Positions 2,196 through 5,617 of a stretch of 6,690 bases of DNA are shown here, in pieces (within the stretch, counting starts at the first letter, position 1; each line of letters starts with the position of its first letter). The position numbers were made by a program, and so were the translations under genes. The DNA comes from an uncultured Prevotellaceae bacterium (GTDB taxonomy: Bacteria; Bacteroidota; Bacteroidia; Bacteroidales; Bacteroidaceae): positions 1 to 6,690 of the forward strand of contig CAMPCG010000163.1 of NCBI GenBank assembly GCA_946644025.1, written 5' to 3'. Below the pieces are notes generated by a model. It had not been told where the DNA came from, did not search any database, and saw only the letters and a program-made list of their open reading frames with translations.

Positions 2196-3023
2196 ATGCT
2201 GAAATTCATATCCTTTGGCAGTGGTAGCAGCGGCAACAGCTATGTGCTCTACAGCGACAGCGACGCACTGATGATCGACGCCGGTGTCGGTGTGCGCGCG
2301 CTGAAGAAGCACGCCAAGAGTTACGGTCTGGCGCTGTCTCGTGTGCACCATCTGCTTGTCACCCACGACCATGCCGACCACATCAAGTGTGTGGGCAGCC
2401 TGAGCCATGACCTGCATCTGCCCGTCTATGCCACCGAGGCCGTCCACCACGGCATAGACCGCAACTACTGTGTGGCGCGCAAGGTGGATGCCGAGCTGCG
2501 ACACTATCTTGTCCCTGGCACCCCGGTTGAGGCTGGCACCTTTCGTGTGACGCCCTTCAGCGTGCCTCACGACAGCAGCGACAACGTGGGCTACCAGGTG
2601 GAGGCGCAGGGCACGGTCTTTTGCATCATCACCGATGCCGGCCGCGTCACCGAGGAGATGGGTCAGTATATAGGCCGTGCCAACTACCTTGTCCTGGAGG
2701 CCAACCACGATGTGGAGATGTTGCAGAACGGGCCTTACCCGCAGCACTTGAAGAAGCGCATACAGAGCGGTACGGGCCATCTGAACAACGTGGCCTGTGG
2801 CGAGGCCATCGCCCACTACATGAACGAGCAGCTGCGCCACGTGTGGCTGTGCCACCTCTCGGAGGAGAACAACCACCCCGAGCTGGCCCGCAAGACGGTG
2901 GAGGCGGTGCTGCGCGGCTATGGCATCGTCGTCGGCAAGGACATGGAGCTCGACGTGCTGAAGCGCACCATGCCCACGGGGCCCTTCGAGCTTGTGCCCA
3001 GCCAGCTCTCGCTTTTTGACTGA
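2196..3023 (+). CDS. yycJ: YycJ/WalJ-family MBL-fold metallo-hydrolase (probable nuclease) with C-terminal clamp-binding peptide
   Basis: The protein has 275 residues, a normal length for the family. Family marks are the N-terminal FGSGSSGNS (7-15), the metallo-beta-lactamase metal motif THDHADH (56-62, with H57, H59, D61, H62), PHDSSDN (124-130, H125), TDAGR (146-150, D147), LEANHD (167-172), GHLNN (194-198, H195) and CHLSEENN (219-226, H220). Together these supply a complete two-metal site. There is no signal peptide, so it is cytosolic. YycJ homologues in Firmicutes sit in the walRK operon, and a mutator effect has been reported for Bacillus anthracis yycJ, which suggests a role in DNA repair; that is family knowledge from memory. 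The extreme C terminus is QLSLFD (270-275), matching the beta-clamp-binding consensus QL(S/D)LF, which fits a DNA-acting enzyme. It is monocistronic: divergent from the acidic-tail gene and convergent with the barrel gene across a terminator. Confidence 0.93.
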   Translation: MLKFISFGSGSSGNSYVLYSDSDALMIDAGVGVRALKKHAKSYGLALSRVHHLLVTHDHADHIKCVGSLSHDLHLPVYATEAVHHGIDRNYCVARKVDAELRHYLVPGTPVEAGTFRVTPFSVPHDSSDNVGYQVEAQGTVFCIITDAGRVTEEMGQYIGRANYLVLEANHDVEMLQNGPYPQHLKKRIQSGTGHLNNVACGEAIAHYMNEQLRHVWLCHLSEENNHPELARKTVEAVLRGYGIVVGKDMELDVLKRTMPTGPFELVPSQLSLFD

Positions 3024-3062: not shown

Positions 3063-3089
3063 GGGGAGGGTTGAGAACACTAAAAAGAC

Positions 3090-3121
3090 ATCCCCAGCCA
3101 GGCTGCTGTCCGGCTGGGGAT
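3090..3121. terminator. Bidirectional intrinsic terminator between convergent genes
   Basis: ATCCCCAGCC (3090-3099) pairs perfectly with GGCTGGGGAT (3112-3121), giving a 10-bp GC-rich stem and a 12-base loop. On the plus strand it is followed by AATTTTGTTT, ending yycJ transcripts. On the minus strand the flank reads TCTTTTTAG, ending transcripts of the outer-membrane barrel gene. The position midway between two converging stop codons fits this double use. Confidence 0.88.
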
Positions 3122-3148
3122 AATTTTGTTTCTTGTCGTTGCTTCTGC

Positions 3149-3856: not shown

Positions 3857-4003
3857 AAGCCCCACCCCCGGCCCCTCCAGGCCCCCTCTGTCTCCCCCCA
3901 AGGGGGAGGGGAGCTTTCGCGGCTTAAGCCTCCCCCTCGGGGGGAGGTTCTTGCTCCATTTTCATTACGCAAGCGTCCCTTTGGGCCGAGCGGGTGGGGG
4001 CTT
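3857..4003. repeat. GC-rich palindromic intergenic element, REP/MITE-like
   Basis: The outer arms AAGCCCCACCCCCGGCCC (3857-3874) and its imperfect reverse complement at 3983-4003 bound a 147-bp element. Inside are CTCCCCC/GGGGGAG (3892-3908, loop CAA), the perfect palindrome GGCTTAAGCC (3921-3930), CCTCCCCC/GGGGGAGG (3929-3947, loop TCG) and ACGCAAGCGT (3967-3976). Similar C-tract/G-tract palindromes are, as I recall, scattered between genes in many Bacteroidetes genomes. No protein is encoded. It lies downstream of tyrA and could fold at the 3' end of that transcript, acting as a terminator or decay barrier. Confidence 0.7.
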
Positions 4004-4069
4004 GGGGGGGTGGGTGTTGGGTGGGTGTTGGGTTGGTGTAGTGGGTGTTGGGTGGGTGTGCTGGGTGGG
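3992..4069 (+). repeat. G-tract tandem repeat with G-quadruplex potential
   Basis: The plus strand has twelve separate runs of three or more G in 78 bases. The core is an 11-bp unit TGGGTGTTGGG repeated exactly at 4011-4021, 4022-4032 and 4042-4052, with degenerate units between and after. Short loops of 1-4 bases between G runs meet the usual criteria for intramolecular G-quadruplexes. Transcripts of tyrA would carry the C-rich complement, so any quadruplex would form in DNA or in plus-strand RNA. Confidence 0.75.
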
Positions 4070-4093
4070 AGGTTATTTCCGCGGCAGAACATT

Positions 4094-4998: not shown

Positions 4999-5568
4999 TT
5001 AGGGTCCGTTGCTGACTGTGAGCATACCGCTAAACTCGTTGTAGTCCACGTATCGGTACATGGCCAGGTTGTGGCCTTTCTCTCCGCTCTGCACGTAGCC
5101 CTCCGAGCCGTTGATGTTGTAGGTGCGGTGGCATTTGTCGCAAGTCAGTTCGTAGAGCGAGCTCCATTTCAGCTCGTAGTTAAAGTCGCAGTTGGGGCAC
5201 TGCAGGTCGTATGCCTTGAGCTGTCCGAACGACGACCGCCCTATGATGAGTCCCTGCTTGTAGCCCATGCGTGTGTAGAGCACGGCGCGTCCGTTCACCG
5301 CCGTGCTCATGGTCAGGTCGAGGTCGGAGGCGGCATACGACTCCTTGTCCCGGTTGGGGCTGAGCTTGAGGTGGGTGACGCCGTGGTCCATCACTGCCTT
5401 GACGATGCAGAAGGTGCCGCCGGCCATGTTGTTCACCGAGCGTGTCAGTGCGCTCGAAGTGAACAGCGAGGCCTGGAATGTGAAGTAACAGTCGTGGGTG
5501 CTGTACATGTTGTCGGTCTCGCACGCACTGCACATTATTATTAATAATGTAAGGAGAATCTTCTTCAC
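4999..5568 (-). CDS. Putative lipoprotein with a four-Cys Rieske-like C-terminal domain
   Basis: I choose the GTG at 5566-5568 as start because it gives MKKILLTLLIIMCSAC, a clean lipoprotein signal with lipid Cys at residue 16; a TTG nine bases further upstream (5575-5577) would only add three residues. The 189-residue product should be anchored in a membrane facing the periplasm or surface. Residues about 20-110 look beta-rich. The C-terminal part has C124-P-N-C127 and C143-D-K-C146-H147, then YNINGSEGYVQSG and a closing LAMYRYVDYNEFSGMLTV. This layout, including the 15-residue gap and the G-x-V-x-x-G stretch before the last strands, resembles a Rieske domain, but both His ligands are Cys. 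Zinc or a rubredoxin-like iron site is therefore more likely than a Rieske cluster. It lies 49 bases behind argH and is probably co-transcribed. Function unknown; the domain reading is inference. Confidence 0.8.
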   Translation of the reverse strand: MKKILLTLLIIMCSACETDNMYSTHDCYFTFQASLFTSSALTRSVNNMAGGTFCIVKAVMDHGVTHLKLSPNRDKESYAASDLDLTMSTAVNGRAVLYTRMGYKQGLIIGRSSFGQLKAYDLQCPNCDFNYELKWSSLYELTCDKCHRTYNINGSEGYVQSGEKGHNLAMYRYVDYNEFSGMLTVSNGP

Positions 5569-5617
5569 TATAAACAACGGATTAAGACGGATTTCACGAA
5601 TGATATAGCCAGAGGGT

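Follow-up and report, generated by a model that had tools for sequence, protein, structure and literature searches.

A walJ gene that ends in a clamp-type peptide

We analyzed a 6.7-kb stretch of DNA (6,690 nucleotides, hereafter the window) from an uncultured Prevotellaceae bacterium. It carries walJ (yycJ), a coding sequence at 2196..3023 on the + strand for an MBL-fold hydrolase of 275 amino acids, as defined by its open reading frame, the Pfam family PF12706 and alignment to Priestia megaterium WalJ. The PF12706 MBL domain scored 71.7 bits in the Pfam search, and the protein resembled the yycI-adjacent WalJ of Priestia megaterium (L210) over its full length (32% identity across 266 columns, E 1e-48). 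When 72 sequences were aligned, the window protein counted in, residues H57, H59, D61, H62, H125, D147 and H220 were invariant, the first four of them within the metal-site motif HDHADH (H57-H62; 2364..2381, + strand). As in the MBL superfamily at large, these seven residues presumably bind the metal. Judged by its MBL fold, its conserved ligands and its full-length similarity, the protein is a member of the WalJ/YycJ family.

The predicted core closes with the strand FEL (residues 264-266; 2985..2993, + strand), placed by the AlphaFold model and the tails of homologues, and most of the Prevotella WalJ proteins examined terminate at this strand or just past it. In the window protein, it is followed by the short linker VPS (residues 267-269; 2994..3002, + strand), delimited from homologue tails, by the pentapeptide QLSLF (residues 270-274; 3003..3017, + strand), and by a terminal Asp with the stop codon (3018..3023, + strand), the C-terminus thus reading PTGPFELVPSQLSLFD and then stop. 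The codons run from Q270 (3003-3005) through L (3006-3008), S (3009-3011) and L (3012-3014) to F274 (3015-3017), with D275 at 3018-3020 and TGA at 3021-3023. The first-pass annotation had placed QLSLF at residues 270-274, one residue ahead of the stop, and translation of the open reading frame at 2196..3023 confirms this. We class the pentapeptide as clamp-binding-type from its sequence, its occurrence in relatives and the consensus QL[S/D]LF or QxxLF of a motif class that binds DnaN, as given in an excerpt of PMC12309361.

Pfam and NCBIfam searches of the open reading frames revealed no walRK gene neighborhood around walJ within the 6.7-kb window. That neighborhood is known from Firmicutes and is not a defining mark of the WalJ family; a WalJ relative in Pseudomonas aeruginosa is located between bamC and purC. 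No repair genes were found in the window either: the neighbors of walJ are metabolic or of envelope type, or match no family, and the window contained no Rfam match. The walJ and OMP genes converge, and the hairpin that separates them at 3089..3122 (called on the - strand) is at best a possible terminator, as one such site was observed in the scanned region against 2.9 expected from shuffles. Just upstream of the walJ start, at 2166-2173, lies TACCTTTG, which we take to be similar to the Bacteroidota promoter element TAnnTTTG. Upstream of walJ, a 267-aa open reading frame with an acidic C-terminus (1156-1959, - strand) had no Pfam or NCBIfam match. Elsewhere in the window, a lipoprotein-like open reading frame with a TTG start and paired CxxC motifs (4999-5577, - strand) had no Pfam family above cut-off. 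The segments 3892-3946 and 3992-4073 are GC-rich and intergenic; they contain an inverted repeat of 18 nt, 94% complementary, as well as imperfect direct repeats rich in G.

The peptide forms no core strand in the models

AlphaFold modeled the window protein with a mean pLDDT of 93.6. At residues 271-275 the average was 52, with no strand and a low-confidence helical turn at 271-274. In the model of P0121, from Flavihumibacter sp. R14, residues 255-277 (the end of the protein) are coil, and the last two blocks have pLDDT values of 52 and 64. The first-pass annotation had named a buried strand of the MBL fold as an outcome that would speak against its reading; neither model has a core strand at the motif, where pLDDT is low or the chain is coil, and the idea of a buried strand was discarded on that basis. 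The annotation had also described the stretch PTGPFELVPS as flexible-looking. This was borne out only in part: FEL forms a strand and residues 261-270 have a mean pLDDT of 85, and the confidence drops at the residues that follow. The window linker, with about three residues (VPS), has little reach, which may restrict docking.

The top 50 structural neighbors of the window model comprised RNases, phosphodiesterases, PqqB and others, RNase Z, PhnP-type and Apyc1 structures included, and none was named a DNA exonuclease; no solved WalJ structure was seen by sequence search. Such neighbors would suit an enzyme that docks on DnaN by its tail and, rather than being a DNA exonuclease, acts close to the fork as a hydrolase of a nucleotide or an RNA end, and some relatives do carry the database name phosphoribosyl 1,2-cyclic phosphodiesterase. 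We nevertheless consider this improbable. The NCBIfam PhnP score of the window protein is 31.8, far below the cut-off of 272.25, so that a PhnP phosphodiesterase identity was rejected, and the walJ passage of PMC4801191, citing Yang et al. 2013, presents WalJ of Bacillus anthracis as the product of a mutator/mismatch-repair gene with 5'-3' dsDNA exonuclease activity. The mutator effect of yycJ loss in Bacillus anthracis, which the first-pass annotation had mentioned, is thus already in print.

The tail motif exceeds chance

We counted clamp-type peptides within the C-terminal 25 residues of 596 distinct WalJ-like proteins. These comprise proteins of 225 aa or longer that matched any of eight WalJ at a BLAST E of at most 1e-5, together with proteins found by homology; this set may contain a few more distant MBL proteins. 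QxxLF occurred in 185 of the 596, a figure that is not a frequency, since the proteins share ancestry and some of them were gathered by searching with tailed WalJ, and in 0 of 1126 control proteins (the other open reading frames of at least 120 aa from the fetched loci). The general six-residue clamp motif, which is the other clamp-ligand form, was found in 18 WalJ-like proteins and 2 controls (L078 and L026), and 393 of the 596 had neither form. Identical C-terminal stretches were counted once, and L200 (208 aa) and L202 (at a contig end) were dropped as incomplete. In an earlier set, QxxLF appeared 0 times in the remaining 99,742 WalJ residues; the 20-residue cut used for that set and for the tree scores P0005 as tailless, its QLSLF starting 22 residues from the end.

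Shuffling of the tails gave the same picture. Two groups, which we call Cytophagia/Chitinophagia-type and Pedobacter-type, were named from their named relatives and their position in the tree. Among representatives of the Cytophagia/Chitinophagia-type WalJ, which are about 33% identical to the window protein, 40/63 carried the tail peptide against a mean of 0.9 after shuffling, and in the Bacteroidales part of the same set the motif was observed in 8/88 against a mean of 0.15; it was present in 0/21 other tails. The QLSLF tail of the window WalJ is more than chance.

The composition of the peptide bears on its function. The search pattern leaves position 3 free, yet 23 of the 32 Cytophagia/Chitinophagia-type tails that carry QxxLF have Ser there, and the 14 linker positions before the motif had entropies of 2.8-3.8 bits; Q1, L4 and F5 are fixed by the search pattern and are invariant by construction. 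Hydrophobic C-termini can act as protease tags, and 49 of the 84 QxxLF peptides in the earlier set abut the stop exactly, as a degradation tag or some other signal unrelated to the clamp might. The motif also occurs with up to 17 residues after it, however, and its six-residue variants are similar to the second form of clamp ligand, of which an excerpt of PMC12309361 gives QLSLPL as an example. Moreover, Ser at position 3 agrees with the consensus QL[S/D]LF published there. We consequently regard a tag as very improbable.

Close homologues keep the peptide, and most of the sampled genus lacks it

All 16 top-scoring homologues carried QxxLF; they share 73-100% identity with the window protein (about 100% in two cases) and had 1 to 17 residues after the motif. 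Among the best 120 of 5392 homologue matches, 21 had a clamp-type peptide, 19 as QxxLF (variants QLSLF, QLELF, QPVLF, QTELF and QLPLF) and 2 in the six-residue form (QLSLDF and QLSFAF). In the 80 named loci, QxxLF was found only in L001 and L002. Compared with the window, the QLSLF codons differ at 2 positions in L002 and at 3 in L001, every change being synonymous, which with only five codons is a weak signal; the rest of walJ differs from L002 by 59 synonymous and 44 non-synonymous codons, and from L001 by 91 and 41. The WalJ of L074 ends in EELSLF-stop and that of its relative L167 in VQLSLF-stop; the Glu in place of Gln suggests that ELSLF in L074 is possibly a decaying motif.

Samples of the genus, order, phylum and class were drawn irrespective of the tail, the genomes at their centers excepted. 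In the genus of the close relative G002, 91/100 genomes had a WalJ match, and the motif was present in 2/91, one being the center genome. Because only these 2 carry it, we conclude that most sampled Prevotella WalJ do without the motif. The first-pass reading depended on the tail being conserved among close homologues: this stood for the 16 closest and failed for the genus, and the tail was also absent from one Bacteroides and one Parabacteroides record. Across the close homologues, the Cytophagia/Chitinophagia-type proteins and a Cyclobacteriaceae-type set, the peptide is kept while flanking residues vary, yet it is missing in 89/91 WalJ of the genus sample.

This rarity, together with the endings DLVP-stop and VPGV-stop of some relatives, which are possible remnants, could indicate that the motif in this Prevotella clade is a functionless extension produced by neutral read-through. 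Its presence in all 16 best matches and the purely synonymous codon differences within QLSLF relative to two relatives argue the other way, and we hold this to be the least probable of the readings considered.

The tail is common in some Bacteroidota and scattered in Bacteroidales

The order sample, centered on the Xylanibacter brevis genome G005, which is itself tailless, had matches in 31/119 genomes; the 29 tails included 1 QxxLF (L130) and 1 six-residue form (L131). Genome G234 of this sample stood outside the tail count, and a weaker six-residue match, L138, lies inside a tailless protein and was treated as chance. In the phylum sample of G005, 13/148 genomes matched at E 1e-20 or better, with 6 QxxLF and 1 six-residue peptide. 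For the class of G128, searched with a tailed query, 36/295 genomes matched (E 1e-25), giving 34 complete and 2 incomplete tails. The 34 comprised 12 QxxLF, 2 six-residue and 2 weaker forms and 18 without a motif, 5 of which looked decayed (KLNLF, QLSLW, QLSIF and two QFQFAI). Most sampled Bacteroidota genomes were hence without a clear WalJ; many may use another excision exonuclease, or this first-look search may have missed their WalJ.

In the Cyclobacteriaceae-type set, also collected with a tailed query, QxxLF was found in 103/119 proteins and the six-residue form in 1/119, and 13 of the other 15 hold a variant that we judged recognizable, such as QLSIF, QLSMF or QLRLW. Within Bacteroidales, 9/14 members of the G264 family had peptides of the six-residue type, QLTLDF and QLEIDF among them, and the G221 family had QMCLF and QMRLF in 2/7. 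The Pedobacter-type WalJ had no clamp motif. Of 227 matched plasmid/phage records (29 + 198), 12 were scored, and the motif was present in 0/12: seven non-Bacteroidota cellular records (Priestia, Paenibacillus, Latilactobacillus, Acetoanaerobium, Fusobacterium, Pseudomonas and Neochlamydia), two from Bacteroidota (Bacteroides and Parabacteroides) and three phage. A tail ancestral to all WalJ, which we considered, is unsupported by these 12 tailless records.

In a FastTree phylogeny of 172 representatives, which came with long-branch warnings, the tail needed 17 changes, compared with about 40 for shuffled labels, and at least eight were forced by starred branches. On these sequence comparisons, the tail is common in the Cytophagia/Chitinophagia-type WalJ, scattered in Bacteroidales, with the window as a scattered case, and absent from the small number of other records scored. 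Neither the enzyme family and its part in mismatch repair nor the class of peptide is new; what appears to be new is that many Bacteroidota WalJ carry a C-terminal clamp-type peptide, which seems to come and go in Bacteroidales. None of the titles or abstract beginnings within our literature coverage reports a clamp motif in WalJ/YycJ, a weak negative since most subscription journals lie outside that coverage.

Mismatch-repair partners carry similar peptides

The partner proteins were surveyed in the genomes of 12 relatives, which stand in for the window's genome. MutL, MutS and DnaN were present in 12/12. MutL carried QxxLF in all 12, about 140 residues before its C-terminus, and DnaE carried QxSLF in 9 of the 10 genomes in which it was found, that of G097 being without the motif; the searches of G002 and G369 gave no DnaE. 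MutS had QLSFF, QMSLF, Q[LM]QMF or QLNIF in 12/12. These forms are distributed by group (loci L232-L243), with QLSFF in six Prevotella-type genomes and the others in the remaining six. In G128, WalJ and DnaE share QASLF.

The alignment between the DnaN of G002 and E. coli beta spans 369 residues, with matching DGHKL and RYPNY stretches. Judged by the residues of the clamp cleft, these stretches and the C-terminus MMPMLIND of the G002 protein presumably belong to a normal cleft.

The claim that QLSLF is a clamp-docking peptide, as the first-pass annotation had proposed, is well supported by comparison: the motif is kept across varied flanks, is absent from the control open reading frames, resembles the motifs of DnaE and MutL, and does not form a core strand in the models; its absence from most WalJ of the genus sample tells against it. 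From the motif class to which the peptide belongs, we infer that the tail very probably docks on DnaN.

A model for clamp-tethered excision

We propose that the window WalJ is a clamp-tethered 5'-3' excision exonuclease in mismatch repair, a reading to which we assign a probability of about two in three. Given docking, nuclease activity and a mismatch-repair role are probable by analogy with the published Bacillus work; excerpts of PMC8034640 likewise name WalJ as the exonuclease of mismatch repair. In this model, the WalJ of this Prevotella lineage would be an MBL-fold 5'-3' DNA exonuclease whose QLSLF sits in the DnaN binding cleft. The clamp left behind the fork would license and orient MutL, which would dock by its own QxxLF and nick the new strand. 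The second, free cleft of the dimeric clamp would then hold WalJ at the nick, and excision toward the mismatch would thereby be restricted to freshly replicated DNA.

The tail could also dock on DnaN for another clamp-centered job, for instance to trim the 5' ends found at gaps, at stalled forks or on Okazaki fragments. In B. subtilis, loss of walJ improves survival after replication arrest, as loss of recJ does, according to a passage of PMC9836290, and walJ has a row in the DNA-damage Tn-seq table of PMC6051672. Two Prevotella-type genomes whose WalJ has no tail, G003 and G005, retain both MutS and MutL. In the Paenibacillus phage Saudage (L214, 2077-3762), recT and primosome genes flank a WalJ-like MBL gene, and seven Staphylococcus plasmid matches (H21-H27) overlap recT or recombinase annotations; such positions would suit a 5'-3' exonuclease partner in recombination. 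On the other side, passages of PMC4801191 and PMC8034640 give mismatch repair as the family's role in repair, and the MutL and MutS proteins of the relatives' genomes bear similar peptides. Another clamp-centered job is therefore unlikely, though clearly less so than the remaining alternatives discussed above. In S. aureus, deletion of walJ made no difference in the phenotypes tested, among which the passage in PMC4801191 does not list mutation rate.

A broader version of clamp-tethered excision, which we offer tentatively and consider doubtful, is that DnaN serves as a hand-over platform in Bacteroidota mismatch repair. MutS, MutL and WalJ would all dock by Q-type peptides, and WalJ would resemble PCNA-bound Exo1. 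The tail would have been repeatedly gained and lost between related species, and tailed and tailless pairs might differ in how closely excision is coupled to replication, with mutation rate perhaps differing as well. To our knowledge, little is understood about how an excision exonuclease is recruited to the correct strand in methyl-independent mismatch repair. A clamp ligand in WalJ, if true, would offer a direct physical route for bringing the exonuclease to the right strand. The many tailed Cytophagia/Chitinophagia-type WalJ, set beside the tailless Pedobacter-type and most sampled Prevotella WalJ, provide a natural comparison.

Comparison with known systems

The closest known counterpart is Bacillus WalJ/YycJ, which belongs to the same family as the window protein, as the alignment with Priestia WalJ indicates. 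The Priestia protein, however, has 264 aa, stops at the core without a clamp motif and is encoded beside yycI, whereas the window gene is not. Bacterial MutL shares the QxxLF motif, as in the genomes of the relatives, but bears it internally rather than at its end and is an endonuclease. A table of PCNA partners (PMC9690074) includes eukaryotic Exo1. In function, Exo1 is alike, being an exonuclease of mismatch repair that works 5'-3' and touches the sliding clamp, although its protein, ligand motif and clamp are not known to be related to those of the WalJ case.

Clamp motifs are often C-terminal, as passages of PMC4549789 and PMC9690074 state. PolC of B. subtilis has a C-terminal QLSLF peptide, identical to that of the window WalJ, and this peptide has a KD of 3.8 micromolar for DnaN (PMC12309361, in excerpt), but PolC is a polymerase and thus an unrelated enzyme. 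NucS/EndoMS of Actinobacteria contacts the clamp via its last five residues, according to an excerpt of PMC12892979, and so offers a case of a nuclease in DNA repair that binds the clamp through its C-terminus, as we propose for the window WalJ. It differs in being a mismatch endonuclease of species without MutS and MutL, whereas the genomes of the window's relatives have both.
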